Assembly (NCBI RefSeq): GCF_030269305.1
Contig: NZ_BSTC01000008.1
Location: forward strand, 186,001-250,000
Direction of reading: 5' to 3'
Source: Kineosporia sp. NBRC 101731
GTDB taxonomy: Bacteria > Actinomycetota > Actinomycetes > Actinomycetales > Kineosporiaceae
DNA length: 64,000 bases
The notes below the pieces were generated by a model. The model saw nothing but the letters and a program-made list of their open reading frames with translations, did not search any database and was not told where the DNA came from. The translations under genes were made by a program, and so were the position numbers. This document shows, piece by piece, positions 26,149 through 47,908 of this stretch (position 1 is the stretch's first letter; each line of letters begins with the position of its first letter).

Positions 26149-26732
26149 ATGGAATACGTGAAGCTCGGCTCGACGGGACTGGATGTCTCCCGTCTGTGTC
26201 TCGGATGCGTGAGTTACGGGGAGCCCGGCCGTGGCACCCATCCCTGGACCCTCGGCGAGGACGAGAGCCGTCCCTTCATCAAGACGGCCGTCGAGGCCGG
26301 GATCACGTTCTTCGTCCCCCAGCGCTAGCGCGCCGGGAGGTGCCCCCACCGGCCAACATGTATTCGGACGGCACCAGCGAGGAGATCGTCGGCCGGGCGC
26401 TGGCCGACTACGCCCGCCGCCACGAGATCGTGCTGGACGCGGGTAGCGATCGGCAGAAGACTGACGCCGTCGGCCAGACCCTCTATCAGGAGGGCGATCG
26501 TGAGATCGTCGAGGCAGTCGCCAAGGTGGCGGACGCCCGGGGCGTCTCCCGAGCCCAGGTGGCACTGGCGTGGGTGGCCCGGAACCCGGTCGTGACCGCT
26601 CCGATCATCGGGGCGACCAAGCCGCACCACCTGACCGATGCGCTGGCCGGGATCGAGCTGCAGCTGACGGACGACGAGGTGTCGCAGCTGGAGGCTCCCT
26701 ACACGGCCCATGCCGTGGCCGGTCACTCGTAG
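26149..26732 (+). pseudogene. aldo-keto reductase, disrupted by a palindromic element and an internal deletion
   Basis: The 5' part encodes a normal aldo-keto reductase start (MEYVKLGSTGLDVSRLCLG ... EAGITFF). There, a 33-bp palindromic element (26316-26348) replaces the expected Asp-Thr-Ala junction, brings in a stop (TAG at 26326) and shifts the frame by a net 32 bp. The other frame then continues with NMYSDGTSEEIVGRALADY. After HEIVL, about 150 residues of the barrel are missing, including the catalytic Lys and His region; the text resumes at GQTLYQEGDREIVEAVAKVA and ends normally near AVAGHS. Two independent lesions make function impossible. Confidence 0.9.
26316..26348. repeat. short palindromic element, copy 1 (inside the aldo-keto reductase)
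   Basis: 33 bp that start CCCCCA and end GGGAGGTGCCCCCA. TGGGGG(C) on one strand faces CCCCCA on the other, with a variable 10-12 base centre. The same framework is found at 31008-31037 and 46434-46466. Each copy sits inside an older sequence. Confidence 0.8.
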
Positions 26733-26798
26733 CATCCGGAAACCTACTCGAAGCTTCCAAGTGCTCTTGTCTGCCTACTTTGAGTGATGGGAAGATCA

Positions 26799-26826
26799 TT
26801 GAGCGACAACTGAATTGCATTAAGTA
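26799..26826 (+). promoter_or_regulatory. possible promoter of the ABC importer operon
   Basis: TTGAGC (26799-26804), 16-bp spacer, TAAGTA (26821-26826), in a locally AT-rich stretch. A start near 26833 would give a leader of about 170 bases that contains the short ORF at 26864-27007. Confidence 0.35.
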
Positions 26827-26863
26827 ACGAATTGGTCTCGGTGTGTTGCCCTGGCTTGTCCGG

Positions 26864-27007
26864 ATGATGATGGGGGATTCCTCGTCCGTTTGCCATCCGG
26901 TCAGCCATCGGCTGCTCCGGGCCCCCGGTTGTCGACGCATCGACGTGTCAACGTGTGCAACGTTCAACTATGCGGGGGCAATGTGCCTGAGGAGGCAGCA
27001 GTCTTGA
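26864..27007 (+). CDS. Cys-rich leader peptide ORF upstream of the ABC importer
   Basis: A 47-codon ORF that begins with three consecutive ATGs and ends TGA overlapping the TTG start of the next gene. It encodes four cysteines and the run CRRIDVSTCATFNYAGAMC. This resembles the RRH(I)-(V)D(L/V)-...-C pattern of actinobacterial 'putative leader peptides' found before sulfur assimilation genes. The ribosome-binding site of the importer gene (GAGGAGG) lies inside its last codons, so translation of the ORF must affect initiation downstream. Cysteine-responsive attenuation is the natural reading; it is an inference from pattern and position. Confidence 0.5.
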   Translation: MMMGDSSSVCHPVSHRLLRAPGCRRIDVSTCATFNYAGAMCLRRQQS

Positions 27008-28134
27008 AGAAGGTCATGCGCGGTGTCAGTGCGACGGTGGCAATGGGCGCGATCGTAGGTCTGGCAGCCTGTGCCCCGCCGGACAAGAAGGACGACAGCG
27101 CGACCGGCGCCAACGGCGTCAGCGCCGCGTCGGCGACCTCCGCGGAGGAGTTCGGAGGGCTCGACGCCCTGGTCACGGCGGCCAAGAAGGAAGGCCAGCT
27201 GAACGTTGTCGCACTGCCGGACAACTGGGCGAACTACGGCAAGATCAAGGCCGCCTTCACCGAGAAGTACGGCATCAAGATCACCACGGACAACCCGGGC
27301 GGGTCCAGTCAGGAGGAGATCAACTCGGTCAAGGACGAGAAGGGCCGCAGCTCGGCCCCGGACGTCCTGGACATGGGTGGTGCCGTCACCCTGGCCAACA
27401 CCGCTCTGTACGCGCCCTACCAGGTCGCGACCTGGGACGACATCCCGGACAGCCAGAAGGAGTCGACCGGCCTGTGGGTCAACGACTACGGCGGCTACAT
27501 GTCGATCGGCTACGACTCGTCCAAGTTCAACGACGTCTCCGCGCTGAAAGACCTGCTCGGTAAGGACTTCAAGAACTCGGTCGCACTGAACGGTGACCCG
27601 ACGCAGGCCGGTGCCGCGTTTGCCGGCGTCGCGTTCGCCGCGCTCGGCAACGGTGGCTCGGCCGACGACGTCAGCAAGGGTGTCGACTTCTTCACCGAGC
27701 TGAAGAAGGCCGGCAACTTCGTGCCGGTGCAGGCCAGCGACACCACGATCAAGAGCGGTGAGACGCCGGTCGTGTTCGACTGGGACTATCTGAACGCCGC
27801 CCAGGTCAAGGAGGTCCCGACCTGGAAGACCGTGATCCCCGAGGGTGTCCTGCTCGGCAGCTACTACAACCAGGCCGTCAACAAGGACGCTCCGCACCCG
27901 GCCGCCGCCCGGCTGTGGCAGGAGTTCCTCTACTCCGACGAGGGCCAGAACCTCTACCTCGGTGGTGGCGCCCGTCCGGTGCGCATGGAGGCCATGACCA
28001 CGGCCGGCACCATCGACAAGGACGCCGCGGCGAAGCTGCCCGAGGCCAAGGGTGACGCGGTGTTCCTGACCACGGAGCAGACCACGAAGGCCACCGAATA
28101 CCTGACCAAGAACTGGGCCAAGGCGATCGGCTGA
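27004..28134 (+). CDS. ABC transporter substrate-binding lipoprotein (family 1, Fe3+/spermidine-like)
   Basis: The receptor of an import system, 376 residues. The N-terminus MKKVMRGVSATVAMGAIVGL is followed by the lipobox LAAC, so the mature protein is lipid-anchored outside the membrane. The fold matches type 2 binding proteins for iron, polyamines or phosphonates (KEGQLNVVALPDNW, then NSVKDEKGRSSAPDVLDMG). The start is TTG at 27004: GAGGAGG lies eight bases upstream and no better Met is placed. The Cys-rich leader ORF upstream suggests that the ligand is related to sulfur supply. It is the first gene of a four-gene operon. Confidence 0.88.
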   Translation: MKKVMRGVSATVAMGAIVGLAACAPPDKKDDSATGANGVSAASATSAEEFGGLDALVTAAKKEGQLNVVALPDNWANYGKIKAAFTEKYGIKITTDNPGGSSQEEINSVKDEKGRSSAPDVLDMGGAVTLANTALYAPYQVATWDDIPDSQKESTGLWVNDYGGYMSIGYDSSKFNDVSALKDLLGKDFKNSVALNGDPTQAGAAFAGVAFAALGNGGSADDVSKGVDFFTELKKAGNFVPVQASDTTIKSGETPVVFDWDYLNAAQVKEVPTWKTVIPEGVLLGSYYNQAVNKDAPHPAAARLWQEFLYSDEGQNLYLGGGARPVRMEAMTTAGTIDKDAAAKLPEAKGDAVFLTTEQTTKATEYLTKNWAKAIG

Positions 28135-28135
28135 C

Positions 28136-29032
28136 GTGGTGACGTCCACGCCTGTCGACGGTGAACCCGCCGCCCGGTCCTCGCGGACCGGGCGGCGGGT
28201 CCCGCTCAGCTGGCTCGGTGTGGTGCCGTTCCTGGCCTACATCGGGCTCTTCCTGCTCCTGCCCACCGTGCTGGTGGTGGTCCAGGCGTTCGCCGACCCC
28301 GACGGGCGGCCGACCCTGGACAACGTCCGGGCCCTGTCCGAGAGTTATGTGCTGACCGCCTTCTGGCGCAGCATCGAGTTGTCGTTCGTCACCGCCCTGG
28401 TCGGAGCCGTGCTCGGTGCGCTGCTGGCCTACCTGCTGGTGAGTGGCCCGGCCGACGGATTCGTCCGGCGCGTGGCCACCGCGGCCGCTGGTGTGCTGGC
28501 CCAGTTCGGCGGTGTGACCCTGGCTTTCGCGTTCATCGTGAGCGTCGGTAACCAGGGCCTGATCACCCTGCTGCTGCAGAACATCGGGATCGGCGCCTCC
28601 GGTGGCTGGCTCTACCAGATGTCCGGCCTGATCGTGGTGTACCTGTACTTCCAGATCCCGCTGATGGTGCTGGTCTTCCTGCCCGCGCTGGACGGCGTGA
28701 AACCACAGTGGCGGGAGGCCACCGAGAGTCTCGGTGGCAACAGCTGGGCCTACTGGCGGCACGTCGCGGTACCGCTGCTGACCCCGCCCTTCCTGGGAGC
28801 GTTCCTGCTGTTGTTCGCCAACGCGTTCGCCGCCTACGCCACCGCCGCGGCGCTGATCAGTCAGGGTGGCGTGATCATCCCGCTGCAGATCCGCGCGGCC
28901 ATCACCAGTGAGACCGTGCTCGGCCGGGAGAACGTGGCCAACGCGCTGGCTCTCGGCATGGTGATCGTGGTCGCCGTGGCCATGGCGCTCTACTCCTGGA
29001 TGCAGCGGAGGTCCGCCCGATGGCTGCAGTGA
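28136..29032 (+). CDS. ABC importer permease 1
   Basis: Inner-membrane channel subunit, 298 residues, six helices. The binding-protein-dependent transport signature appears as EATESLGGNSWAYWRHVAVP (the EAA loop that contacts the ATPase). The start is GTG at 28136 or 28139, directly after the binding-protein gene; the ribosome-binding site is weak, which suggests coupling. Its 3' end overlaps the second permease gene by 13 bases. Confidence 0.88.
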   Translation: MVTSTPVDGEPAARSSRTGRRVPLSWLGVVPFLAYIGLFLLLPTVLVVVQAFADPDGRPTLDNVRALSESYVLTAFWRSIELSFVTALVGAVLGALLAYLLVSGPADGFVRRVATAAAGVLAQFGGVTLAFAFIVSVGNQGLITLLLQNIGIGASGGWLYQMSGLIVVYLYFQIPLMVLVFLPALDGVKPQWREATESLGGNSWAYWRHVAVPLLTPPFLGAFLLLFANAFAAYATAAALISQGGVIIPLQIRAAITSETVLGRENVANALALGMVIVVAVAMALYSWMQRRSARWLQ

Positions 29033-29883
29033 TGACCGAACTGACCACAGCTCCACCGAAGAACCAGGGTGTGCGAGCCCGTTCGGCCCTGCGCTTCCGG
29101 ATCGGCCGGGCCGTGCTGCTCGTGCTGTTCGCCCTGTTCTTCGCCGTCCCGCTGCTCGCGCTGATCGAGTTCAGCACGCGCAGCACCGACCTGACCGGGC
29201 CACGCACGCTGGAGTACTGGCGCTACATCGGCCAGGACCCGCAGATCCTCACCGCGCTGCGCGACTCGGTGCTGCTGGCCCTGATCACCTCGGTGGTGGC
29301 CCTGGTCCTGCTGCTGCCGACCATGGTCTGGGTGCGGCTGCGGCTGCCGAAACTTCATCGGGTGGTGGAGTTCCTGTGCCTACTGCCGCTGACCATCCCG
29401 GCCCTGGTGCTGGTGGTCGGCTGGGCCCCGATCTACCTGTGGATCGCCTACTTCACCCCCGCCCAGTTCGACAGTTCACCCGTGGTACTGGCTTTCGCCT
29501 ACGTCATCCTGGTGATGCCGTACATGTACCGCTCGCTGGACGCGGGGCTGTCGTCGATCGACGTGCGCACCCTGGCCGAGGCCGCACGCAGCCTGGGCGC
29601 CGGCTGGTTCACCGTGATGGCGCGCGTGATCATGCCGAACATGCTCTCGGCCGTGCTCAACGCAGCGCTGCTGTCGGTGGCGCTGGTGCTCGGTGAGTTC
29701 ACCGTGGCCTCGCTGCTCAACTACGACAACCTGCAGGTCGTGATGAACAACGTGGCCCAGATCAGTTCCGGGGTCACGGTCGCGCTCGCCGCGGCGTCCC
29801 TGATGTTCGTGTTCGTGCTGCTGTTCGCGCTGTCGTTCGCCGGCCGCCGCCGGCCGGCCCGCGCGACCGCTGAGGAGAAGTGA
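29020..29883 (+). CDS. ABC importer permease 2
   Basis: Second channel subunit, 287 residues. Six helices are visible and the EAA loop reads LAEAARSLGAGWFTVMARVI. ATG at 29020 has a perfect GGAGGT seven bases upstream, inside the end of the previous gene. The protein pairs with permease 1 to form the heterodimeric pore of a PotBC- or FbpB-like importer. Confidence 0.9.
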   Translation: MAAVMTELTTAPPKNQGVRARSALRFRIGRAVLLVLFALFFAVPLLALIEFSTRSTDLTGPRTLEYWRYIGQDPQILTALRDSVLLALITSVVALVLLLPTMVWVRLRLPKLHRVVEFLCLLPLTIPALVLVVGWAPIYLWIAYFTPAQFDSSPVVLAFAYVILVMPYMYRSLDAGLSSIDVRTLAEAARSLGAGWFTVMARVIMPNMLSAVLNAALLSVALVLGEFTVASLLNYDNLQVVMNNVAQISSGVTVALAAASLMFVFVLLFALSFAGRRRPARATAEEK

Positions 29884-29884
29884 C

Positions 29885-30979
29885 GTGACGAAAACCGATA
29901 CCCCAGTGACGGCCGCCGAGGCCACCCGGGCCGGGGTCGAGGTCCGGCTGGAAGGACTGCGGCGCCAGTACGGTGCGGTCACCGCCCTGGACGGCCTCGA
30001 CCTCACCATCAAGCCCGGCGAATTCGTCGCTCTGCTCGGCCCCTCCGGCTGCGGGAAGACCACCGCGCTGCGGCTTCTCGCGGGTCTGGAAGACGCCGAC
30101 GGCGGGCGCGTGGTGGTCGGCGACAAGGACGTCACCCAGCTGCCCACGAACAAGCGCGACATGGGCATGGTGTTTCAGGCCTACTCGCTCTTCCCGCACA
30201 TGACCGCCCGGCAGAACGTCGCCTTCGGGCTGCGCCTGCGCAAGATCGGCGAAACCGAACGCAACCGGCGGGCGGGCGAGATGCTCGAACTGGTCGGCCT
30301 TTCGGCGCAGGCTGACCGGTACGCCCACCAGATGTCCGGCGGTCAGCAGCAGCGGGTGGCCCTGGCCCGGGCCCTGGCGATCCGCCCGACCGTGCTGCTG
30401 CTCGACGAGCCGCTCTCCGCCCTGGACGCCAAGGTCCGGGCCACCCTGCGCGACGAGATCCGCCGCGTGCAGCTGGAGGTCGGGATCACCACGCTGTTCG
30501 TCACGCACGACCAGGAGGAGGCGCTCGCCGTCGCCGACCGGGTGGGTGTGATGAACGCGGGCCGGCTGGAGCAGCTGGGCCCCCCGACCGAGGTCTACGG
30601 TCGTCCGGCCACGCCGTTCGTGGCTCAGTTCGTGGGCCTGTCCAACCGCATCCCGGCGACCGTGAACGGTTCCACGGCAGATGTTCTGGGTGCCGCGGTG
30701 CCGGTCATCCCGTCGTCGATCGACCGTGGTGAGGGCTTCGCCCTGGTGCGCCCGGAGGCCGTGGACCTGTTCCCGGTGACCGACGGCGCGACCGGCCCGC
30801 TGGTGGGTCAGGTGATCGCGACCTCGTTCCTCGGTGCGGTCAGCCGGATCACGGTCGACCTGGGCCCGGCCGGCAAGGTGCTGGCCCAGATGCCCACCTC
30901 GCAGGCTGGTGGCTTCGGCTCCGGCAGCGTGGCCCGGGTGACGTTCCGGCCCGACCCGGTGCTGGTGGTCAAGGGCTGA
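29885..30979 (+). CDS. ABC importer ATPase (PotA/FbpC-like, with TOBE domain)
   Basis: The motor subunit, 364 residues. It shows GPSGCGKTTALRLLAG (Walker A), MSGGQQQRVALARAL (signature), VLLLDEPLSALD (Walker B) and THDQEEALAVADRVG. The last 110 residues form a TOBE-type regulatory domain (FALVRPEAVDLFPVTDG). GAGGAGAAG precedes the GTG at 29885. The operon ends here; a long palindrome follows within 20 bp. The order binding protein, permease, permease, ATPase is that of iron, polyamine and sulfate-like importers. Confidence 0.92.
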   Translation: MTKTDTPVTAAEATRAGVEVRLEGLRRQYGAVTALDGLDLTIKPGEFVALLGPSGCGKTTALRLLAGLEDADGGRVVVGDKDVTQLPTNKRDMGMVFQAYSLFPHMTARQNVAFGLRLRKIGETERNRRAGEMLELVGLSAQADRYAHQMSGGQQQRVALARALAIRPTVLLLDEPLSALDAKVRATLRDEIRRVQLEVGITTLFVTHDQEEALAVADRVGVMNAGRLEQLGPPTEVYGRPATPFVAQFVGLSNRIPATVNGSTADVLGAAVPVIPSSIDRGEGFALVRPEAVDLFPVTDGATGPLVGQVIATSFLGAVSRITVDLGPAGKVLAQMPTSQAGGFGSGSVARVTFRPDPVLVVKG

Positions 30980-30993
30980 CCTGCCCCTCTTCG

Positions 30994-31103
30994 GTGATCA
31001 TGCCAATCCCCCAGCCTTCGGCCGGGAGGTGCCCCCACTCCCCGGAGTTCTGGAACTGCTGGCCCGAGAGTTCTAGAACGCCGGGGAGGTTTTGCATGAT
31101 CAC
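30994..31103. repeat. long palindromic repeat, copy 2, interrupted by the short element
   Basis: Ends GTGATCATGC (30994-31003) and GCATGATCAC (31094-31103) match copy 1. The inner arms 31038-31057 and 31069-31088 pair over 20 bp with one mismatch and one G-T. The left arm is broken by the 30-bp short element at 31008-31037, whereas the right arm (GGGGAGGTTTTGCATG) is intact. It lies between convergent genes and can still end both transcripts. Confidence 0.8.
31008..31037. repeat. short palindromic element, copy 2 (nested in the long palindrome)
   Basis: 30 bp with the same CCCCCA start and GGGAGGTGCCCCCA end as the copies at 26316 and 46434, with a CTTCGG-type loop. Its position inside the left arm of the long palindrome shows that it arrived after that repeat. 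Confidence 0.8.
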
Positions 31104-31118
31104 GAAGAGGAGGGGTGC

Positions 31119-31160
31119 GGTTCTCGGAACTCGGGGACACTTTGCAAGATCACGAACAGG
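31119..31160. repeat. right half of a long palindromic repeat
   Basis: GGTTCTCGGAACTCGGGGACAC then TTTGCAAGATCACGAACAGG matches the right half of copy 3 (52.53-52.57 kb) without a left partner. It may be the remains of a second, adjacent copy after deletion. Confidence 0.6.
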
Positions 31161-31172
31161 GGTTTGGCCGGG

Positions 31173-31979
31173 TCAGTAGGCTTGGAGGGCCAGATCGATC
31201 GCCAGACCCAGTCCGGTCAGGGCGATGAGGATGCGCAGGGGGCCGGCCGGGGCATGGCGCAGGACGATCGGGCCGATCCGGCCGCCGATCAGGGATCCCA
31301 GGGCCAGGGGCAGGCAGTACAGCCAGTCCACCGGGCCGAAAGCGATGAAGTAGACCGCGGCCACGGCATTCGCGGCCGTGAGCACGGTGGTGCGCACGGC
31401 GCTGGCCCGGGCCAGGCCCAGCCCGGTGAGACCGAGCAGCAGGGCTATCAGCATCACGCCGGCGGCGGCCCCGAAGTAGCCGCCGTAGATGCCGACGAGG
31501 AACGTGCCGATCAGGAGGGCGCGCGGTGGGCCGTCGTCCGCCGGTGCCGGATCGAGATCGGCTGCGGTGTGCGGGATTTGGTCGGCCGGAACGTCGCCGA
31601 CGGCCGATCCTTTCGCCGGTCCGGGGCGCAGCAGCACGGCCAGGGCGGCGCCGCCGATCAGGAACGGCACGACCTTCTCGAACGCGTCGGACGGGGTGAG
31701 CAGGAGCAGTACACCGCCGACGATGCCGCCGGGTACGGCCCAGAGCAGCATCTTTCGCAGCAGTGGGCCCTGGCCGCGCAGCTCCGGGCGGGAGCCGTGC
31801 AGGGTGCCCGCGCCGGAAAAGATCAGGGCCACGGTGTTGGTGACGTTGGCGCTGATCGGGGAGATGCCGGTGGCCAGCAGGGCGGGGTAGCTGATCAGCG
31901 AGGCCAGACCGGCGATGCTGCCCGTGAGACCGCTGCCGATACCGGCGAGCACCAGCAGGAGGGCCGTGGTCGCACTCAC
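31173..31979 (-). CDS. TauE/SafE (TSUP) family membrane transporter
   Basis: A 268-residue transporter with about eight helices. The family pattern GLTGSIAGLASLISYPALLA occurs in helix 1-2, and GIYGGYFGAAAGVMLIALLL is repeated in the second half. TSUP proteins export sulfite, sulfoacetate or other sulfur-carbon anions. The start is GTG at 31979, overlapping the stop of the SUFU-like gene by four bases, so they are coupled. Placement next to an importer with a Cys-rich leader supports a sulfur-linked role, but this is only positional. Confidence 0.87.
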   Translation of the reverse strand: MSATTALLLVLAGIGSGLTGSIAGLASLISYPALLATGISPISANVTNTVALIFSGAGTLHGSRPELRGQGPLLRKMLLWAVPGGIVGGVLLLLTPSDAFEKVVPFLIGGAALAVLLRPGPAKGSAVGDVPADQIPHTAADLDPAPADDGPPRALLIGTFLVGIYGGYFGAAAGVMLIALLLGLTGLGLARASAVRTTVLTAANAVAAVYFIAFGPVDWLYCLPLALGSLIGGRIGPIVLRHAPAGPLRILIALTGLGLAIDLALQAY

Positions 31980-32557
31980 CGGTGCAACACCGAGCGCCGC
32001 TCCGGATCGCGCAGGTCGGTGCCTGCTTCCAGCCACATCTGCCGGACGTGGGCCGCGCCCCGGGCCCGGGCCAGAGCAGCCTCGTCCGGGGTCATGGGCA
32101 GCACGGGGTAGAAGCCCACCGGGTCGGCCGGGGGCCCGAGATCGAGGTCGGGCACCAGGCCACCGGCGTCACCCAGCAGCACCGCGGTGAACCGGGCCCC
32201 CGGCCAGAGGGGCTGCTGCAGGTCGATCGTGGCGCCGGAGGCCAGTACGAGTCCTTCGACCTGAGGGGTGGCGGCCAGCACGGCCAGCGTTCGCAGGACC
32301 TCGTCGCGGGCGGGGCGCAGACTCAGGACGAGTTCGGCCCGGGGGCCGCGCACCGGATCGGCGACCGTGGCCGTGGGTGGGTGCATCGGCTCCTCGCTGA
32401 TCCCGACGGTGACGTAGCGGACCAGGCCGGTGGGGTCGGGTCCGAAACGGTCGACGTGCAGCGTGCGGGTGCCCAGGAAGGTCACGGAGGCACTGGCGTT
32501 CGGACCGGGGAAGGTTGTCGTCAGATGCGTCCGGACGAGGTCGGTGACGGCAGGCAC
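31976..32557 (-). CDS. Suppressor-of-fused (SUFU) domain protein
   Basis: A 193-residue protein of the bacterial SUFU-like family: RTLHVDRFGPDPTGLVRYVTVGISEEPMH at the N-terminus, RAELVLSLRP in the middle, and VGFYPVLPMTPDEAALARARGA near the C-terminus. Bacterial SUFU proteins are mostly uncharacterised; some are immunity proteins or metabolic accessory proteins. No toxin gene lies beside it. GTG at 32557 is the only in-frame start of proper length. It is operonic with the TauE-like gene. Confidence 0.75.
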   Translation of the reverse strand: MPAVTDLVRTHLTTTFPGPNASASVTFLGTRTLHVDRFGPDPTGLVRYVTVGISEEPMHPPTATVADPVRGPRAELVLSLRPARDEVLRTLAVLAATPQVEGLVLASGATIDLQQPLWPGARFTAVLLGDAGGLVPDLDLGPPADPVGFYPVLPMTPDEAALARARGAAHVRQMWLEAGTDLRDPERRSVLHR

Positions 32558-32709
32558 CCCGGCATTCCATCACGGCCCCCCGCAGCGGGATCGGGCCGCC
32601 GCCGGTAGGGGCACCTGGAGAGCCGCGGTGACCACCTCGTCCTCCGCTGCGGCACGACCACCGGGCGATCACCCGGTTCCGGGCCGGGGCATCGTGCCAC
32701 CATGCAGGA

Positions 32710-33534: not shown

Positions 33535-33536
33535 GG

Positions 33537-33665
33537 TCAGGTCTGCCGGATCGCGGGACCCAGGAGCAGCCGGCTCGCCGCCGGCCGGTAACGCGGTAGG
33601 CCCAGGGGTGGGAGGGGTGGCACGAAGAGCCGGGAAAAGCCCGGAAGGGCCAGTCGCTCAGGCAT
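33537..33665 (-). CDS. possible 42-residue ORF coupled to the upstream membrane protein gene
   Basis: A short Pro/Leu/Arg-rich ORF (LPGFSRLFVPPLPPLGLPRY) starts with an ATG that overlaps the stop region of the gene at 33658-34848 by eight bases. The overlap would allow coupled translation. It has no recognisable domain and may be chance; no separate ribosome-binding site is visible. Confidence 0.25.
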   Translation of the reverse strand: MPERLALPGFSRLFVPPLPPLGLPRYRPAASRLLLGPAIRQT

Positions 33666-34848: not shown

Positions 34849-34880
34849 CGAGTGTGGCTCGGCGACCGGGGTTGGTGCCT

Positions 34881-39574: not shown

Positions 39575-39589
39575 CTGTATTCAATACAG
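39575..39589. promoter_or_regulatory. TetR operator between tetR and mmpL
   Basis: CTGTATT-C-AATACAG is a perfect palindrome in the 221-bp divergent region. A further half-site, CTGTATC, lies at 39592-39598. Overlap with the probable promoters of both genes fits joint autorepression and repression of the exporter. Confidence 0.6.
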
Positions 39590-39646
39590 ACCTGTATCGA
39601 AGCTGTTCAGACGCCCCCTGCCCCGGGCGCTGATGGGAGAACACGT

Positions 39647-41821
39647 ATGTCCACGCTGCTTTATGCGCTCGGCCGGCGCGCCTACCGGGGGCGGTTGGTC
39701 GTCATCGGCGTCTGGGTCCTGGTGCTCGCCGGACTCGCCGCCGGGGCGGTGACCCTCGGGAGCGGCACCAGCGAGGAGTTCCGGATTCCCGGCACCGCCT
39801 CGCAGGAGGCTCTCGACACGCTCGGCGACCGCTTCCCCGAACTGGCCGGTGGCCAGGCGCAGGTGGTCGCGGTCGCGTCCGACGTCACCACCCCCGAGAT
39901 GAAGAAGGCGGTGCGCAGTTCGCTCGCCGCCGTCTCGCAGGTCGACGGCGTCACCGCCGTGATCGACCCGTACAACGAGCAGGTCAAGGGCGCGATCTCG
40001 CAGGACCGGCAGGTCGCCCTGGGCACCGTGCAGGTGGAGAGCAACTGGCGCGACGATTCCGACGCCCTGCGTGACGCCATCGAGAAGGCCGCTGAGCCGA
40101 TCACGGCCGCGGGCGGCCAGGTCGAGTTCGGCGGTGAGGTCTTCGCCGTGTCCCTGCCGTCGGTCACCCCGACCGAGGGCATCGGCGTGGTGGTCGCGCT
40201 GATCGTGCTGATCGTCACCTTCGGCTCGATCCTCGCCGCCGGGCTCCCGCTGATCACCGCCCTGGTCGGCGTCGGCGCCACGATGGCCGCGATCTGGCTG
40301 TTCACCCCGGTGCTCGACATCTCCAGCACCGTGCCGCTCCTGGCCCTGATGATCGGTCTGGCCGTCGGCATCGACTACGCGCTGCTGATCGTCTCGCGGC
40401 ACCGCGACCAGCTCCGGGACGGTCTCGACCCGGAGGAGTCGGCGGCCCGGGCGGTGGCGAAGGCCGGTTCCGCAGTGGTCTTCGCCGGTCTGACCGTGAT
40501 CATCGCCCTGGTCGGCCTGGCCGTCGCCCGCATCCCGTTCCTCACCGTCATGGGTGTGGCCGCGGCCGGAGCCGTGCTGGTGGCCGTGCTGATCGCGCTC
40601 ACCCTGCTGCCGGCCCTGCTCGGTTTCCTGGGATCGCGTCTGACGCCGAAACCCGTTGAGGGCAAGGAACGTCACCGCTTCGCCCACGCCTGGCTGAGCA
40701 CCGTCATCCGGATCCCGGTGGTGACGATCCTGCTCGTGGTGGTCGCCGTCGGCGCGCTCGCCGTGCCGGCCAAAGACCTGCGCCTGGCCCTGAACGACAA
40801 CGGCACCGCCGCGTCCGACACCACTCAGCGCAAGGCGTTCGACCTGGTCGCCACTCACTTCGGCCCCGGCGCCAACGCTCCTCTGCTGGTCACCGCCGAT
40901 CTTCCGGCCGGCTCCGACCCGCAGAAGCTCCTGGCCCAGCTGGCCCAGGAACTCGGCGGCCTGAAGGGTGTGGCCGGGGTCAGCTCGGCGGCGGTCAACG
41001 CCGACGGCGACCTGGCCGTGGTGGCCCTGGTCCCGACCGGAAGCGCCTCCTCCCAGGTCACGTCCGACCTGGTGAAGGAGATCCGTTCGGCCGACGCCGA
41101 TCTGCGGCAGAAGTACGGTGTCGATGTCGGCGTCACCGGCCAGACCGCCATCGCGATCGACATCTCCGACCGTCTCAGCGACGCCCTGCTGCCCTTCGGC
41201 ATCGCCGTCGTCGGCCTCTCCCTGGTGCTGCTCGGCGCGGTCTTCCGCTCCATCGCCGTCCCGATCAAGGCCGCCCTCGGCTACCTGCTCTCGGTCGGTG
41301 CCTCGTTCGGCGCCGTCACCGCGGTGTTCGAATGGGGCTGGCTGGGTGACCTCCTCGGCGTGCAGCGCGAGGGCCCGGTCATCAGCTTCATGCCGATCAT
41401 CCTGATGGGTGTGCTCTTCGGCCTGGCCATGGACTACGAGGTGTTCCTGGTGGCCCGGATCCGCGAGGAGTTCGTGCACAACGGTGGGGACGCCCGCAAG
41501 GCCCTGCGCGTCGGGTACGCGGCCGGTTCCCGGGTGGTCACGGCCGCCGCGCTGATCATGGTCTCGGTGTTCACCGCATTCGTGCCGGAGGGCGACGCCA
41601 ACATCAAGCCGATCGCCCTGGCACTCGCGGTCGGGGTCTTCGTCGACGCGTTCATCGTGCGGATGATCCTGGTGCCGGCCGTGCTCGCCCTGCTCGGCAA
41701 CGCCGCCTGGTGGATCCCGGGCTGGTTGGACCGCCTGCTGCCGCGCCTGGACGTGGAGGGGGAGGGCCTGGAGAAGAAGCTCGAGCACCAGAAGGAGGAG
41801 GAGCCCGCCCCGGTCCTCTGA
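39647..41821 (+). CDS. MMPL-family RND transporter, TetR-controlled
   Basis: A 724-residue exporter with the twofold MmpL arrangement. The key segments are GLAVGIDYALLIVSRHRDQL (near residue 240) and GLAMDYEVFLVARIREEF (near residue 595). It is related to the MmpL at 15705-17909 but diverged in the loops. GGGAGA lies six bases before the ATG at 39647. The C-terminal tail is rich in Glu and Lys. A strong terminator follows. The divergent TetR gene and palindrome suggest induction by a lipophilic substrate. Confidence 0.92.
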   Translation: MSTLLYALGRRAYRGRLVVIGVWVLVLAGLAAGAVTLGSGTSEEFRIPGTASQEALDTLGDRFPELAGGQAQVVAVASDVTTPEMKKAVRSSLAAVSQVDGVTAVIDPYNEQVKGAISQDRQVALGTVQVESNWRDDSDALRDAIEKAAEPITAAGGQVEFGGEVFAVSLPSVTPTEGIGVVVALIVLIVTFGSILAAGLPLITALVGVGATMAAIWLFTPVLDISSTVPLLALMIGLAVGIDYALLIVSRHRDQLRDGLDPEESAARAVAKAGSAVVFAGLTVIIALVGLAVARIPFLTVMGVAAAGAVLVAVLIALTLLPALLGFLGSRLTPKPVEGKERHRFAHAWLSTVIRIPVVTILLVVVAVGALAVPAKDLRLALNDNGTAASDTTQRKAFDLVATHFGPGANAPLLVTADLPAGSDPQKLLAQLAQELGGLKGVAGVSSAAVNADGDLAVVALVPTGSASSQVTSDLVKEIRSADADLRQKYGVDVGVTGQTAIAIDISDRLSDALLPFGIAVVGLSLVLLGAVFRSIAVPIKAALGYLLSVGASFGAVTAVFEWGWLGDLLGVQREGPVISFMPIILMGVLFGLAMDYEVFLVARIREEFVHNGGDARKALRVGYAAGSRVVTAAALIMVSVFTAFVPEGDANIKPIALALAVGVFVDAFIVRMILVPAVLALLGNAAWWIPGWLDRLLPRLDVEGEGLEKKLEHQKEEEPAPVL

Positions 41822-41835
41822 ATCCCCTGGTGAAC

Positions 41836-41876
41836 CGGGAGGGCCCCGCACGCGGTCTGCGTGCGGGGCCCTCCCG
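41836..41876 (+). terminator. terminator of the TetR-controlled mmpL
   Basis: A perfect 18-bp GC stem, 41836-41853 with 41859-41876, loop GGTCT. It starts 14 bp after the stop codon. No T run follows. Confidence 0.85.
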
Positions 41877-41998
41877 CGTCCGTACAGGTGATACCGGAAC
41901 CTCACGTGATCTGTTTCAGCCGGACGGTATTCAGGTGGCCGTCGTCCGGTCGATGAAAGCGTGACGATTTCTCCCCGGCTCTCGGTGGAAGGCCACCC

Positions 41999-43624
41999 AT
42001 GACCGTGCACTCCCCTCTGAAGTTCATCACCGATCTCCGGATCGGCCTCAAGATCCTGATACTGGCCCTGATCGCCGTCATCCTCACCGCTGCGGTGGGG
42101 TGGACCGGTCAGCACGCCCTGAACCAGGTGCAGAAGTCCGGCGAGTACGTCGTCGATGTCACCGCCGAGGGGAGCCAGGCAATTCTCTCCGCCCGGTCCA
42201 ACTACAGCGGCTTTCGACGGTTCGTCTATGCCACCGTGATCGCCCCGGACGCCGAAACTCGCGACAGCTTCCTCGAGAGCGCGAAAGAGAACTACGACGA
42301 AGCGCTCGCAGAGATGAAGCAGCTCCAGACGCTGGATCTTCCGGCCGCCGACCTGGCCGTCGTGACGGACAAACTGATTCCGGCGACCGAGAAGACCTGG
42401 ACGATGTGGCAGGACGAACTTCTGCCCACCGCATCGCTGCTCAACTTGGGCCGCGGCCGGATCGACGCCTATGTCGCCAAGGTCCGCGCTGACTTCGACC
42501 CGCTGGCCAACGACGTCCGGGACCAGATCGCGGTCATCACCGCGAGCCTGGACAAGTCGATGACCGACCAGTCGGACGCCTCGGCCTCCGACGCCAAGAG
42601 CGCCGCGATCCGGATCTGGGTGATCACGGTCCTCGGCGCGGTGCTGCTCTTCGCCGTCGGGTTGTGGATCGCCCGGATGGTGTCCGGCCCGGTGAACCGG
42701 TTGCGCCTGGCGCTGGTGGCGCTGTCCGAGGGCGACCTCACCGTGGCAGCCGACGTGGGGGGCCGCGACGAGATCGGCCAGATGGCCACGGCCCTGAACG
42801 AGGCCCGGGATTCCCTGCGCGCGGCCATGATCCAGATCAACGGAACATCGGGGACGCTCTCCGACGCCTCTCACAGTCTGGGCTCCATCTCCGCGCAGAT
42901 CTCCGCGAACGCCGAGGCGACGTCCCGGCAGGCCTCCGGCCTGGCCGGTACCGCGAACGAGGTGTCGGGGAACGTGCAGACGGTGGCCGCCGGCACGGAG
43001 GAGATGACGGCGAGCATCCGGGAGATCGCCTCGTCATCGGCTCAGGCCGTCCGGGTGGCCGCCAGCGCGGTCAACGAGGCGGTCACGGCCCGGGCGACCG
43101 TCGGGAAGCTGGGTGACTCCAGCGAGGAGATCGGCAATGTGGTCAAGGCGATCACCTCGATCGCCGAACAGACCAATCTGCTGGCGCTGAACGCGACCAT
43201 CGAGGCGGCCCGGGCCGGGGAGGCGGGCAAGGGCTTCGCCGTCGTCGCCGAGGAGGTGAAGCAACTGGCCCAGGAGACGGCCCGCGCCACCGAGGACATC
43301 TCTCGCCGGGTCGAGACGATCCAGGCAGACACCCAGGAGGCGGTCAACGCGATCGCCCGCATCTCGCAGACGATCGAGGACGTCAACTCGTACCAGACCA
43401 CGATCGCCTCGGCGGTCGAGGAGCAGACCGCCACCACGTCGGAGATCTCCCGGAGCATCACCGAGGCGGCGGCGGGATCGGCCAATATCGCCGCGAGCGT
43501 GGACTCGGTGGCCGGGGCCGCCCAGGCCTCGGGGGAAAGCATCGGCCAGGCCGAGCGGGCCGCAGGGGAGCTCGCAGGACTGTCGGGTGAGCTCCGTCAG
43601 CTGGTCTCCCGGTTCCGGCTGTGA
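41999..43624 (+). CDS. methyl-accepting chemotaxis receptor
   Basis: A 541-residue chemoreceptor. Transmembrane helix 1 (residues 18-40) and helix 2 (near 200-222) flank a helical periplasmic-side sensor domain of the four-helix-bundle type. A HAMP domain follows ([18 protein letters not shown]). The signalling hairpin contains the conserved tip [20 protein letters not shown] then [18 protein letters not shown]. The C-terminus ends [10 protein letters not shown], without the NWETF pentapeptide. GGAAGG lies six bases before the ATG. It is the first gene of a chemotaxis cluster. Confidence 0.95.
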
Positions 43625-43845
43625 CGAGATCTGATGCCACTCCTCGTCCAGCGGCTCCGGGGAGCAGCGGCCGGACGGGTGGCACGGCAGCGTGGAGCAA
43701 AAACTCGAACACGCTGAGTGTTCAGTCGTCGCAGATCGTTGCCGATGGGCTGGGGACGATCCAGGCCGCCCCAACGGCCGGTGCCCAACCGAAAGGCTCC
43801 AGGAACTACCCCGTACGTCAGCTGGTGTCCCGCTTCCGGCTGTAA
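43621..43845 (+). pseudogene. remnant carrying a second receptor C-terminus
   Basis: The last 30 bases (43816-43845) match the last 30 bases of the receptor gene (43595-43624) at 27 positions and end with the same QLVSRFRL plus stop. The 190 bp before them do not resemble a receptor. This looks like the tail of a duplicated receptor gene left after deletion. An open frame does run through it from 43621, overlapping the receptor stop, but I do not believe it is functional. Confidence 0.4.
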
Positions 43846-43908
43846 ACCACTGAAACGCAACCGAAATCCCATCAGCTGAGATCAGCATGAAAGAGAGATA
43901 GGCGGATC

Positions 43909-44280
43909 ATGCAGGCACTAGTCGTCGACGACTCGCGGGTGATGCGGACCATCCTGACCAAACTCCTCACCAACCTGAACTTCGATGTGGTTCAGGCCGG
44001 CGACGGAGCGGAGGCTCTGGCCGCACTCGATGCCGGGGCCCGTCCGGAGGTCGCGCTCGTGGACTGGAACATGCCGGTCATGGACGGGCTGACCTTCATC
44101 AAGAAGGTCCGGCAGAACCCGGAGTACCGGGACGTGGTGCTGATGATGGTCACCACCGAGAGCGAACAGAACAACATCGTGCGGGCGCTCGCCGCCGGTG
44201 CGCACGAGTACGTGATCAAGCCGTTCACCGACGAGGTCATTGCCGAGAAGCTGGAGATGCTGGGACTGATCGAGCGATGA
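43909..44280 (+). CDS. cheY: CheY-like single-domain response regulator
   Basis: A 123-residue receiver without an output domain. ALVVDDSRVMR supplies the acidic pocket, VALVDWNMPVMDGL the phospho-acceptor Asp, VTTESEQ the Thr and YVIKPF the conserved Lys. It would carry the signal from a CheA kinase to the flagellar motor. GAGAGATAGGCGGATC precedes the ATG. No CheA gene lies in the window, so the kinase must be encoded elsewhere. Confidence 0.93.
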   Translation: MQALVVDDSRVMRTILTKLLTNLNFDVVQAGDGAEALAALDAGARPEVALVDWNMPVMDGLTFIKKVRQNPEYRDVVLMMVTTESEQNNIVRALAAGAHEYVIKPFTDEVIAEKLEMLGLIER

Positions 44281-44323
44281 GCACACCGGAAGAGTTAGCA
44301 GTGGGTGAAGGGAGATCTCGCCG

Positions 44324-45151
44324 ATGAGTATCGCGACCACGGACTTCGCTTTCGTGGCCGACCTGGTGCGCCAGCGCAGTGCCATTGATCTGCAGCCTGG
44401 CAAGGAGTACCTGGTGGAGTCCCGACTGGTGCCGCTGATGCGGACCAGCGGGGAGAGCGATCTTGCCGCTTTCGTCGCCCGGCTGCGCCGCGGCGATTCA
44501 CAGCTGATCGCCTCGGTCATCGACGCGCTCACCACCAATGAGACCCTGTGGTTCCGGGACACGGCCCCTTTCGACGTCTTCACCAAGCAGCTGCTGCCGG
44601 ATGTGGCCAAGACGTCGCTGACCAAGAAGATCACCGTGTGGTCGGCAGCCTGCTCCTCCGGTCAGGAGGGCTACTCGCTGGCCATGCTGCTGCTCGACTG
44701 GCTGCCCCGGAACCCGGGTTTCGATGCCAAGATCGTCGGCACGGACATCTCGCACAAGATGGTCGAGCGGGCCGGCGCGGGTAAGTACTCGCAGCTGGAG
44801 ATCAACCGCGGTCTGCGGGTTCCCTACCTGGTCAAGTATTTCGACCAGGTAGGCCGGGACTGGGTACTGAAGAAGGAGGTTCGCGATCTGGCGACCTTCA
44901 AGTGGGGAAACCTGGCCCAGCCACCGGTCGGCCATCCGCAGTGCGACATCATCTTCCTGCGGAACGTGCTGATCTACTTCGACCCGCCCACCAAGAAGCG
45001 CGTCATCGAGAACTGCCGGTCGGTGCTGCGTCCGGGCGGTTACCTGGTGCTGGGGGGCGCCGAGACCGCTCCGTCGCTGGGTCCCAACTGGAAGCGGGTG
45101 GACGTGGACCGAGCGGTCGTGTTCCAGCACCTGGGAAATGGAGCATCATGA
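44324..45151 (+). CDS. cheR: CheR chemotaxis protein methyltransferase
   Basis: A 275-residue S-adenosylmethionine-dependent enzyme that methylates Glu residues of the receptors. The N-terminal helical domain ends around residue 80 (TTNETLWFRD). The SAM site is visible as VWSAACSSGQEGYSLAM, and the catalytic core as IVGTDISHKMVERA and CDIIFLRNVLIYFD. GGGAGATCTCGCCG precedes the ATG. It overlaps the next gene by four bases (ATGA). Confidence 0.95.
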   Translation: MSIATTDFAFVADLVRQRSAIDLQPGKEYLVESRLVPLMRTSGESDLAAFVARLRRGDSQLIASVIDALTTNETLWFRDTAPFDVFTKQLLPDVAKTSLTKKITVWSAACSSGQEGYSLAMLLLDWLPRNPGFDAKIVGTDISHKMVERAGAGKYSQLEINRGLRVPYLVKYFDQVGRDWVLKKEVRDLATFKWGNLAQPPVGHPQCDIIFLRNVLIYFDPPTKKRVIENCRSVLRPGGYLVLGGAETAPSLGPNWKRVDVDRAVVFQHLGNGAS

Positions 45152-45666
45152 TCGATCCCGCTGAACTGGCCGCATCCCAGGCTGATCTGGAGATGCTGCT
45201 CGTCGAGATGATCGCCTCGGTCCTCGGTGAGCAGGCGGAGCCGACGGCGGAGCCGCTGCCGGCGGCCGTCGGCCTGGCGGTGTCCCGCCTGGTGATCCAG
45301 GACCCGCAGGACGGCTCGTTCCTGGGGGTCGACGTGCGCGCCGAGGGCAACCTCATCACGACGCTCGCGGCGACCCTGCTGGGGGTGGCTGAGCCGGCGC
45401 CGGACGACATGCTCGACGTGATCGCCGAACTCGGCAACATCGCTGCGGGTAACGTGAAGTCGCTGCTGTGTCACAACGGTCAGCTGTCGCTGCCCGCCCC
45501 GCAGCTCGCCTTCGAGCACGAGGGCGACTCACCGGACGCGATCCGGGCCGGCGCGAGCCTGCTCGGCAACGTGATGGAACTCGTGGTGATGCCGTTGCAC
45601 TCGGCCGATGCGAAGACCCGGTGGCCGTCCGGGTCGGCGCAGCACTCGGCGGAGGTCGGCGTCTGA
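45148..45666 (+). CDS. CheX/CheC-like chemotaxis phosphatase homologue
   Basis: A 172-residue protein. The segment DDMLDVIAELGNIAAGNVKSLL contains the E-x2-N pair of CheX/CheC/FliY phosphatases, which remove the phosphate from CheY. Only one such motif is present, as in CheX. The rest is beta-alpha-beta without clear features. ATGA overlap with cheR makes it part of the same operon, which supports a role in turning off CheY. Confidence 0.75.
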   Translation: MIDPAELAASQADLEMLLVEMIASVLGEQAEPTAEPLPAAVGLAVSRLVIQDPQDGSFLGVDVRAEGNLITTLAATLLGVAEPAPDDMLDVIAELGNIAAGNVKSLLCHNGQLSLPAPQLAFEHEGDSPDAIRAGASLLGNVMELVVMPLHSADAKTRWPSGSAQHSAEVGV

Positions 45667-45683
45667 GCGGCTCTGACGCACGA

Positions 45684-45716
45684 AACTGGCCGGCACCCTC
45701 GGGGCGCCGGCCAGTT
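45684..45716 (+). terminator. terminator after the chemotaxis operon
   Basis: AACTGGCCGGC (45684-45694) pairs with 45706-45716 around an 11-base loop. It lies between the CheX-like gene and a convergent tetR gene and can serve both. Confidence 0.75.
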
Positions 45717-45720
45717 CTCG

Positions 45721-46371
45721 TCATTTCTGGGGGCGTTTGTGCGCGTCGGCGATGCGCTGCAACTGCTCGTCGCTGATCGCCGGGCGACTGCTGGGCGCCG
45801 GGTCGATGCGCAGGGCAGCCAGGTGCAGGTCGAGGTGACGCTGCCAGGCATCCGGAGCGCTCTGCCCGGTCACCGCGACGATGCCGCGCAGGGCCCACAT
45901 CAGGGCCCGGACGTCACCGAACGCGACGCCGGGGCTGATCCGGCCGTGCTCGAAGGCCTGAGCGTGCAGATCGGCGATCAGCGCGTTGAGCTGTTGCTGG
46001 TGGGTCTCGTTGCCCGGACTGAAAAGCTTGGCCGAGTAACCGTGATGCCGGGCCAGCGAACGGCCGAAGGCCCGTAGGAAGGTCTCCAGCCCGTTGCCGT
46101 GCTCGTCTTCCAGACCGGCCCGGGCGGTGCTGATCAGCTCGTCCAGGATGATCCGGACCAGCTCGTCGACCAGAGCCTGCTTGTTCGGGTAGTGCCGGTA
46201 CAGCGTGCCGACGCCGACGCCGGCCCGGGAGGCGATCTGCTCCATGCTGGCTTCGACACCGGACTCGGAGATCACGTCCCGGGCCGCGGCCAGCACGGCC
46301 TCCGAGTTGCGCGCCGCGTCTCTGCGCATCGGGCGCTCGGTGGCCCCCACTGGAGCGTCAATCCCGTTCAT
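45721..46371 (-). CDS. TetR-family regulator coupled to an MFS exporter
   Basis: A 216-residue repressor. VEASMEQIASRAGVGVGTLYRHYPNKQALV is the TetR helix-turn-helix. The gene overlaps the 3' end of the MFS gene by 14 bases and is read after it. No ribosome-binding site is clear for ATG 46371; ATG 46326 is an alternative. It probably represses the MFS operon and so itself through the paired operators upstream of the MFS gene. The C-terminal domain is Arg-rich. Confidence 0.88.
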   Translation of the reverse strand: MNGIDAPVGATERPMRRDAARNSEAVLAAARDVISESGVEASMEQIASRAGVGVGTLYRHYPNKQALVDELVRIILDELISTARAGLEDEHGNGLETFLRAFGRSLARHHGYSAKLFSPGNETHQQQLNALIADLHAQAFEHGRISPGVAFGDVRALMWALRGIVAVTGQSAPDAWQRHLDLHLAALRIDPAPSSRPAISDEQLQRIADAHKRPQK

Positions 46372-47908
46372 CAACCACGAGCGTACCGCCCGCGACCAGC
46401 GCGAGTTCGGGGGTTTCGGTGGTGATCGGGGTCCCCCCAACCCTTCGGGCACGGGAGGTGCCCCCAGAGGTGCGCGCGGTGGTCACGGCCCGCACCTTCG
46501 GCCGCAGATCGGGGATCAGCAGCCCGGCCAGCGTGGCCAGTACGAGAGCACCGCTCAGCAGGGCGAAGCCGACCGTGTAGCCGGATTCCTCCGGGAACCC
46601 GCCGGTCCCGGTGTGGGCGGTGACCACACTGGCCATCACGGCCGAGCCGATGGCGCCACCGATGGTGCGGATGTTGGCGTTCATGCCGCTCGCCACCCCG
46701 GTCTGCTCCTGCGGCACGCCCTGCACGATCAGCCCTGACATCGCCGAGAAGACCCAGCCCATACCGAATCCGAAGAGGGCACAGCCGATCAGGATCTGGC
46801 TGATGTGGTCGTGGGCGAAGGCGAACATCATCATCGAGAGGGTGGTGATCGCGCACCCGGCCACGGTGAACCACTTACCGCCATAGCGGGCCGAGAGCTT
46901 GCCGGACAGGATGCCGGTGGGCAGCTGGACGAGGCACTGGGGCGCCAGCAGCAGGCCGGAGAGGGTGATGCCGACGCCGAAGCCGTACCCGGCCCCGACC
47001 GGCGTCTGCAGCAGCTGCGGCAGGAAGCCGAACACCGCGTACATCGCCACGCCCAGCAGCAGGGCCACCAGGTTCGCCGTCCAGACCGGGCGCCGGCGCA
47101 TCATCCGCATGTCGATCAGCGGTGTGGTGGCGCGAGTCTCGGCCAGGACCCAGAGGCCGGCGAGCACTGCCGCACCGGCGGTCAGACCGAGCACCGCCGG
47201 TGACACCCAGCCCCAGGACGAGGCCTGGCTGAGTGCCAGCAGCAGGCAGACCAGCCAGCCGGACAGCAACAGCGCCGGGCGCCAGGAGATCCGGCCGGGC
47301 GATCGCACCGGGGACGCCGGGATCAGGAAGTGGGCGGCCACCGCGGCGCCCGCGGTCATGATCATCGGGATCCAGAACAGCCACCGGTAGCTCAGCGCGT
47401 CGACGATCGGGCCGGCGAGAACCAGGCCGATGCCGCTGCCGACCGCGGTCAGGGAGGCCAGGCTGCCGACCGCGCCGGTGACCCGGTGGGCGGGGTACTC
47501 GTCGCGGATGATGCCGAAGGCCAGGGGCAGGGCACCGCCTCCCAGGCCCTGGACCACCCGGGCGATGATCATCACGGCCAGGTTCGGGGCCAGGGCCGCG
47601 AGCAGCGAGCCGATCGCCAGCGCCATCAGCGTGGCGACGAAAACCCTTTCCTTGCCGACCAGGTCGCCCAGGCGTCCCATGATCGGCGTGGCCACCGAGG
47701 CGGACAGCAGGTAGGCGGTCAGGACCCAGGTGACGCCGGCCTGGGTGGTGCCGAGGTCGTGCTGGATGGTCGCCATCACCGGGATGACGAGCGACTGGAG
47801 CAGGGTGAAGGTTCCTACTCCGAGGGTCAGGACGGCGAAGGTGATGCCCGGGGGCGTGCGTCGGTGGTGTTCGCCCGGGATTCCGTTCTCGGGGAGGGTG
47901 GCCCGCAT
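46358..47908 (-). CDS. MFS exporter (DHA2-like)
   Basis: A 516-residue transporter with 14 helices; motif A is GRLGDLVGKERVF near residue 70, and ARVVQGLGGGALPLAFGI is typical of the family. ATG 47908 is chosen with AAGGAG four bases upstream; ATG 47911 is one codon earlier. The C-terminal tail after LRPKVRAVTTART is unusual: 11 codons (SGGTSRARRVGG) come from an in-frame short palindromic element at 46434-46466, then TPITTETPELALVAG ends the protein. The insertion is in the cytosolic tail and probably tolerated. Confidence 0.88.
   Translation of the reverse strand: MRATLPENGIPGEHHRRTPPGITFAVLTLGVGTFTLLQSLVIPVMATIQHDLGTTQAGVTWVLTAYLLSASVATPIMGRLGDLVGKERVFVATLMALAIGSLLAALAPNLAVMIIARVVQGLGGGALPLAFGIIRDEYPAHRVTGAVGSLASLTAVGSGIGLVLAGPIVDALSYRWLFWIPMIMTAGAAVAAHFLIPASPVRSPGRISWRPALLLSGWLVCLLLALSQASSWGWVSPAVLGLTAGAAVLAGLWVLAETRATTPLIDMRMMRRRPVWTANLVALLLGVAMYAVFGFLPQLLQTPVGAGYGFGVGITLSGLLLAPQCLVQLPTGILSGKLSARYGGKWFTVAGCAITTLSMMMFAFAHDHISQILIGCALFGFGMGWVFSAMSGLIVQGVPQEQTGVASGMNANIRTIGGAIGSAVMASVVTAHTGTGGFPEESGYTVGFALLSGALVLATLAGLLIPDLRPKVRAVTTARTSGGTSRARRVGGTPITTETPELALVAGGTLVVDERD
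46434..46466. repeat. short palindromic element, copy 3 (in the MFS 3' end)
   Basis: 33 bp with CCCCCA and GGGAGGTGCCCCCA ends and a CCCTTCGGG-like centre. As 33 is a multiple of three, it keeps the MFS frame open and adds 11 residues. Confidence 0.8.

Follow-up and report, generated by a model that had tools for sequence, protein, structure and literature searches.

To our knowledge, REP-associated tyrosine transposases (RAYTs) are the only enzyme class tied to repeats of the repetitive extragenic palindromic (REP) type, and how such repeats spread is an open question. In Rickettsia, palindromic elements are inserted in frame within protein genes. REPINs, as described in PMC3116915, consist of a pair of conserved arms in inverted orientation, separated by a spacer that is less well conserved; they occur in many copies and accompany a single-copy gene beside the repeats. 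The GTAG- or CGTC-tagged REPs of PMC3733652 are repeated hairpins of 20-40 bp with one unpaired conserved end, some of them in genes; its text names neither Actinobacteria nor Streptomyces. AbiEi proteins of the AbiE type IV toxin-antitoxin systems bind inverted repeats and autoregulate, according to PMC3985639. Here we describe a short hairpin and a longer palindrome that can carry it, both found in a 64,000-nt stretch of DNA from Kineosporia sp. NBRC 101731 (contig NZ_BSTC01000008.1, positions 186,001-250,000, forward strand), referred to as the window. We consider it likely that these are two nested systems, a mobile, non-autonomous REP-like hairpin and REPIN-like palindromes tied to a nuclease with an AbiEi fold and a Vsr-like part. 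The evidence for the hairpin system consists of empty sites, junctions, a predicted fold and tolerance of in-frame copies, and that for the palindrome system of a gene in the loop, inverted repeats at most close homologues and a tendency of motif and gene to co-occur across genera. The nuclease-linked palindrome family is the larger discovery of the two.

The genome itself (G000; 8.26 Mb, 88 contigs, 99 percent complete) was compared with five congeners (G001-G005, giving a genus set of six), 92 further genomes of the family and order (98 with the genus set) and another 395 genomes of the phylum. The closest of the five congeners is G002, Kineosporia mesophila (NZ_JAJOMA010000001.1), in which an 18.6-kb stretch aligns with the window at 90-92 percent in two pieces. 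Congeners were compared at the three window loci (the reductase region in four of the five) and at six other stand-alone hairpins (four congeners at most per locus, G005 left out). Insertion junctions at empty sites were read by eye, and gene names (reductase, transporter, ABC-ATPase-like, trpF-like) were given by reading the sequence, with no family search.

The hairpin and its insertion sites

Three copies of GGGAGGTGCCCCC were found in the window, at the positions given by a sequence-only reading of this DNA. Chance cannot be neglected if the window is taken by itself, as 3 of 100 shuffles reached three matches with at most one mismatch. Genome-wide, the pattern CCCCCA-N3..25-GGGAGGTGCCCCC gave 28 exact matches and a reversed-pattern control gave none, and the reality of all three copies is confirmed. 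Each unit has the form TCCCCCA-stem-loop-GGGAGGTGCCCCCA and is roughly 31-35 nt long; the proposed limits held as to place, but the left end reaches a base further (T26315, T31007, T46432). Twenty of the 28 copies lie inside a longer palindrome, directly after a CGTGATCATGCAAA arm or a near variant of it, and the other 8, with other inner stems, stand alone. In the window, the copy at 31007 is palindrome-borne and those at 26315 and 46432 are stand-alone.

Most of 43 distinct cores, drawn from the genus, order and phylum and partly non-independent, were predicted to fold into a stem, a bulged A, a second stem, an A.C or A-T and a variable inner stem, with the conserved tail TGCCCCCA unpaired. 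Two or more inner pairs lying immediately within the A pair were found in 30 of the 43 cores; 300 shuffles gave 7.5 such cores on average and 14 at most. The second inner pair is C-G, G-C or A-T across cores, so the stem varies while pairing is kept. The hairpin thus has the form of a REP, a short imperfect repeated stem-loop by predicted fold with a conserved unpaired end; no GTAG or CGTC tag was found at its ends, which are TCCCCCA and TGCCCCCA. It is present in all six genomes of the genus. Beyond the genus, the exact pattern was found in 4 of the 92 family and order genomes and in 8 of the 395 from elsewhere in the phylum; six of the 8 belong to one genus that we take to be Streptomyces.

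A clean empty allele was observed in related species at 7 of the 8 stand-alone loci (Table 1), with AC (AT in G002 at L011 and L022) in precisely the position that T...A takes up in the own genome. The eighth locus is L023, where the site in G002 is diverged but occupied-like and the other congeners give no clear allele. The reductase copy shows an extra difference from its relatives on the right side, and at the transporter the aligner placed the gap slightly off the junction read by eye. A junction tally over 28 copies (8 of 8 stand-alone copies in G000, 12 of 12 in G001 and 8 of 9 in G005) gave T before the element in 26, G before that T in 20, A after the element in all 28 (this A lies outside the search pattern) and then G in 22. 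The mobility that the sequence-only reading had proposed is therefore upheld by the empty sites and the reproducible junction. A target-site preference, one of the things it had advised looking for, was also supported, mostly as GG|AC|G. Target-site duplication, the other, was not seen: none was visible at the seven hairpin loci with empty sites, as would mark a miniature inverted-repeat transposable element (MITE). We propose that GAGG|AC|G is the main target, that the hairpin takes the place of the AC or AT dinucleotide without target duplication, and that one enzyme acting in trans would mobilise it. Exact empty sites and two-base replacement together define a concrete insertion reaction.

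The net insert is 33 bp and the frame stays open at L011 (ABC-ATPase-like), L017 (trpF-like), L022 (at the start of an open reading frame, ORF) and in the major facilitator superfamily (MFS) transporter; apart from the transporter, about 100 codons were inspected around each. For the transporter this agrees with the earlier claim of a kept frame (net +33 by alignment). The in-frame copies at L011, L017 and L022 add VPQPQGGREVPP-like or SGGTSRPPGGRGT-like peptides. At L003, L023 and L025 (intergenic by eye, some frames open) and in the reductase the net insert is 32 bp; the reductase frame is indeed destroyed, as had been stated, and the gene additionally lacks about 400 bp of its relatives.

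That all insertions are recent, as had been supposed, is not supported. The G002 reductase also carries TTCTTCGTCCCC, with a degraded remainder resembling a decayed copy, and on this evidence the reductase insertion is probably older than the separation of the two species. G002 is empty at the transporter and at five other hairpin sites, and these six insertions would therefore be younger than the split or have been lost in G002. The nesting order first proposed stands for the transporter and for the palindrome at 31008, since the transporter site is empty in the sister species and its palindrome at the 31008 locus, at the same convergent-gene site, is without the hairpin.

It is possible, if somewhat unlikely, that the hairpin is instead the REP or terminal inverted repeat of a Y1 tyrosine transposase (RAYT- or TIRYT-type), now lost or plasmid-borne, which would move it by single-strand hairpin chemistry. 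Its single unpaired conserved end, as in the tagged REPs, and the closeness of its reverse strand TGGGGGCACC to the GGGGWSAS motif of repeats beside tyrosine transposases (both in PMC3733652) speak for this, as does the absent target duplication, which fits Y1 chemistry. On the other side, a transposase in trans had been anticipated, and none was found by a search of the own genome for the Y1 family only (PF01797, E 0.001); control genomes were positive in 5 of 14 cases, and other genomes with hairpins were not covered. Loss of the target dinucleotide is also not known to go with Y1 chemistry. No gene flanked by hairpins alone was seen in 23 loci from other genomes. We conclude that the hairpin belongs to the REP-like mobile elements and leaves an exact footprint on insertion. 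Within the reach of the literature searched it is a new family; no related title was among those listed for the hairpin letters, and absence from print is not claimed.

The palindrome family

Most hairpin copies, including that at 31008, ride within palindromes, which consist of two inverted CGTGATCATGCAAA arms and, between them, a spacer that is different at almost all loci. The sequence GTGATCATGCAAA gave 461 matches in the own genome with at most one mismatch and none in the control. Exact arms numbered 298 (143+155) in G000 and 260 (130+130) in G002, and none were found in G001, G003, G004 and G005. Because a full palindrome holds two arms, we estimate about 140-230 copies in the own genome, halves counted.

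In palindromes read at 68 loci of the own genome and in the window, the arms are most often spaced by 68 (no hairpin) or by 97 (with the 29-nt insert). Among arms free of the hairpin, 62 of 96 read CAAAACCT and 3 read CAAATCCT. The hairpin-bearing junctions read CAAAT (19 of 22), CAAT (2) or CAGAT (1), letters that cannot separate one ancestral insertion from several because the T is also element-borne elsewhere. Compared with the usual arm (AAA-AC-CTCC), the palindrome at 31008 obeys the same replacement rule. The earlier description of this copy as lying in the left arm, with an intact right arm, was correct, but in the 28-copy list 18 palindromes carry the hairpin at this usual place and one further element carries it in both arms. 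A separate insertion on a par with those of the other two window copies is not supported here, as 20 of 28 copies share that place in a larger repeat family.

The spacer between the two GTTCTAGAAC boxes was 13 nt in 37 of 38 parsed palindromes. Its middle seven bases are highly variable; only 22 of 666 pairs were alike at 6 or more of 8. At seven loci paired between G000 and G002, three spacers were kept with 1-2 differences and one was kept inverted with about 3. Of the rest, one was apparently inverted and diverged, one had no box in G002, and one was a diverged, spacerless short form. Fast spacer mutation within a locus was rejected, as orthologous loci have common spacers. Since these loci keep their spacer, sometimes inverted, each copy seems to have gained it when it arose or later and to have transmitted it from then on. 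At one locus, L095 versus L230, the palindrome core is inverted between two species. For target duplication one palindrome locus was compared, where the intergenic regions were wholly different, so an empty site is not definable. The arm letters had no related title among the literature matches listed.

With an approximate gene caller, the neighbouring genes were convergent for 23 palindromes, codirectional for 22 and divergent for 5, with 2 palindromes intragenic and 1 undetermined, versus 7 convergent, 9 codirectional and 8 divergent gene gaps in the window. Such a bias would be expected if hairpins and palindromes were selected transcription terminators or RNA stabilisers, non-mobile and either arising locally or spread by recombination. 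At the 31008 locus, moreover, the four other congeners have a different gap sequence, at least two with a clear stem-loop by eye, and at L003, L025 and 31008 the hairpin sits in one arm of an older stem-loop. This account is nevertheless quite improbable, because the same hairpin occurs at unrelated loci with a fixed junction, four reading frames included, and relatives have clean empty sites.

The nuclease gene and its flanking repeats

One palindrome of the own genome contains a gene in its loop (G000:C1:1543640-1544833; L013, L109). It encodes a protein of 319 aa and is bordered by 70-bp perfect arms with a hairpin in each. The G002 orthologue (92 percent) lies between 40-bp inverted arms without the hairpin. 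Within the genus, matches at E 1e-12 were found in G000 and G002 only, the two palindrome-bearing species of the six, and in both species this is the only gene seen inside a palindrome among the loci read. The layout is that of REPINs and RAYTs: inverted doublets whose spacer varies, with repeats on both sides of a single-copy gene.

A match of at least 150 bits was found in 11 of the 98 genomes, own included. The best homologue in each of the 11 is flanked by an inverted repeat, at least 13 nt long in 10 and 12 nt at L112 (on second reading). The motif GTGATCWWGCA occurs at least 50 times in 10 of the 98 genomes, own included, of which 8 encode a homologue of at least 150 bits; of the 88 genomes with fewer than 50, 3 do. 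Fisher's test gave P 4e-8 by genome and 5e-5 by genus, with both cut-offs set after the data were seen and phylogeny not corrected for. In one genus (g20) the gene goes with 126 motifs in G086, and G026, G043 and G058 show only 2-5 motifs and no match to the gene. Of 51 named homologues one lacked upstream DNA, hence 50 were used for inverted matches: flanking inverted matches of at least 12 nt were present at 33 of 50 versus 18 of 350 mixed pairs, and of at least 16 nt at 20 of 50 versus 0 of 350. An ordinary MITE of a DDE transposon is a very improbable account of the palindromes. Their terminal inverted repeats and many copies would suit it, but the sole gene seen inside a palindrome encodes the nuclease (both species, loci read; DDE genes were not searched for), and the nuclease homologues elsewhere are likewise flanked by repeats.

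The protein matched the profile AbiEi_4 and also AbiEi_1 and MTES_1575, although in the own protein neither of these two reaches Pfam's cut-off. MTES_1575 is a Vsr-family restriction endonuclease according to PMC3710099; its profile matched 30 of 34 family members at E 0.01. Residues D243, E254, D256 and H261 are invariant in the family alignment. An AlphaFold model from 34 sequences (pLDDT, predicted local distance difference test, 92) matched AbiEi (6y8q, E 9e-8) first in the PDB; Rv2827c (1zel, E 3e-4) and, at rank four, the catalytic domain of I-Bth0305I (3r3p) were also matched. Profiles, PADLOC (three family members match its AbiEi models) and the PDB match agree on an AbiEi fold. The natural reading, from these comparisons and the model, is a putative arm-binding module joined to a putative nuclease module for DNA. 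The nuclease may bind the inverted arms and nick or cut DNA, and binding and cutting would keep the palindromes copied or maintained in trans.

An alternative that we regard as unlikely is that the protein is a defence or autoregulated nuclease which binds the palindromes or uses them for self-recognition, their spread being due to another agent. The binding of inverted repeats and autoregulation by AbiEi proteins (PMC3985639) and the three PADLOC matches would agree with such a role. The repeats, however, lie on both sides of the gene and not at the promoter alone, and a single long ORF takes up the space from arm to arm, which leaves no AbiEii toxin gene there; ORFs outside the arms were not classified.

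Several points weigh against the proposal of two nested systems with a nuclease-tied palindrome. Transposition itself was never observed in the data. Hairpins occur in congeners without the nuclease gene, and because of this the nuclease was rejected as the hairpin's mobiliser and does not explain it. MTES_1575 lies below Pfam's cut-off in the own and K. mesophila proteins, and the match to the catalytic domain of I-Bth0305I (3r3p) is weak, at E 0.011. At 17 of 50 named homologues there is no 12-nt flanking inverted match, and at 6 of 51 loci there is a direct one of at least 12 nt. G007 (151) and G075 (55) are rich in GTGATCWWGCA with no full-length homologue at E 1e-12, and five stretches read there held no nuclease except a 28-percent partial match in G007; the other Kineosporia congeners give 15-25 matches to the motif. 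Homologues in G019, G085 and G094 carry other flanking motifs, and the one further motif counted, GACGATCAAGGAAG, one of four in G019, is rare (12 in G019, 4 in its congener G094, 1 each in G059 and G071, 0 in the other 94). Finally, the spacer pattern could reflect old copies whose arms are held by selection.

Two observations concern the surroundings of the gene. A TTATCCACA-like or CTGTGGA-like sequence, which resembles a DnaA box, lies upstream of the nuclease gene just inside the upstream repeats at L109, L110, L112-L116 and L119. At L112, L113 and L117, homologues from different genera have a similar downstream neighbour (clpX-like by eye), which suggests long vertical inheritance at one site. 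In the convergent gap that corresponds to 30980-31175 of the window, G001 and G005 hold unrelated stem-loops that start with GAGGAC, like the hairpin target.

Table 1. Repeat features of the window, counted from its first letter, and empty alleles at stand-alone hairpin loci
Feature	Position	Strand	Description
Hairpin copy 1, 34 nt	T26315..A26348	+	In aldo-keto reductase pseudogene; G001, G004, G005 read TTCTTCG-AC, then gene continues
Hairpin copy 2, 31 nt	T31007..A31037	+	Usual place within palindrome arm
Hairpin copy 3, 35 nt	T46432..A46466	+	3' end of MFS transporter gene (gene on - strand); G002, G003, G004 read GG-AC-G without element
Long REPIN-like palindrome	30993..31104	.	CGTGATCATGCAAA... 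arms, two GTTCTAGAAC boxes, 13-nt spacer; hairpin in left arm
Degraded half of second same-family palindrome	31116..31155	.	TTTGCAAGATCAC at 31141
Same-family palindrome without hairpin	5156..5238	.	Arm spacing 68
Diverged same-family palindrome	52485..52565	.	Arm spacing 66
Aldo-keto reductase remnant	26190..26735	+	Frame shifted by hairpin; ~400 bp of relatives' gene gone
Empty site L003			GAGG-AC-G, by eye
Empty site L011			ATCG-AT-G, by eye
Empty site L017			GTGG-AC-G, by eye
Empty site L022			GAGG-AT-G, by eye
Empty site L025			GG-AC-G, four relatives, by eye
Empty site, transporter			GG-AC-G, three relatives, by eye
Empty site, reductase			TTCG-AC-A, three relatives, by eye

Comparison with known systems

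We put at about even the chance that this is an actinobacterial REPIN-like system in which an AbiEi-type DNA-binding domain fused to a homing-endonuclease-like (Vsr/EDxHD) nuclease, in place of a RAYT, keeps and spreads dispersed palindromes, with a motif for each gene lineage and an unrelated hairpin parasitising the palindromes. The link between nuclease and repeats was absent from the titles and abstract openings of the literature searched (MTES_1575, AbiEi/DUF559/Vsr palindromes, Kineosporia/Kineococcus repeats, EDxHD); absence from print is not claimed. Nuclease-linked palindromes are a possible new route for the spread of bacterial repeats.

The in-frame hairpins recall the Rickettsia palindromic elements, a likeness of description and not of sequence, and differ in their net length of 33 bp. 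I-Bth0305I, which we take to be an EDxHD/Vsr-like homing endonuclease, is alike in the weak fold match of the C-terminal part of the nuclease and in the logic of a selfish element. It differs in that the present protein has an AbiEi DNA-binding part and goes with dispersed non-coding palindromes, and no intron or intein was seen. AbiE shares the AbiEi fold and has inverted-repeat DNA as a ligand; here there is no AbiEii between the arms, the nuclease domain is extra and repeats lie on both sides of the gene. The hairpin resembles the tagged REPs in size, in its one unpaired conserved end, in being repeated and in lying partly in genes, and differs in its tail TGCCCCCA and in replacing a target dinucleotide. 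The palindromes share with REPINs the paired arms, the less conserved spacer, the many copies and the single-copy gene beside the repeats, and G019, with four homologues and four different flanking motifs, extends the likeness. The gene, however, encodes an AbiEi-fold, Vsr-like nuclease instead of an HUH tyrosine transposase. The palindrome system is thus REPIN/RAYT-like, and is not classed with REPINs and RAYTs because the enzyme test failed in the own genome. A second, unrelated nuclease class linked to REPIN-like palindromes in several genera would offer an independent test of how REP-like repeats originate and persist.

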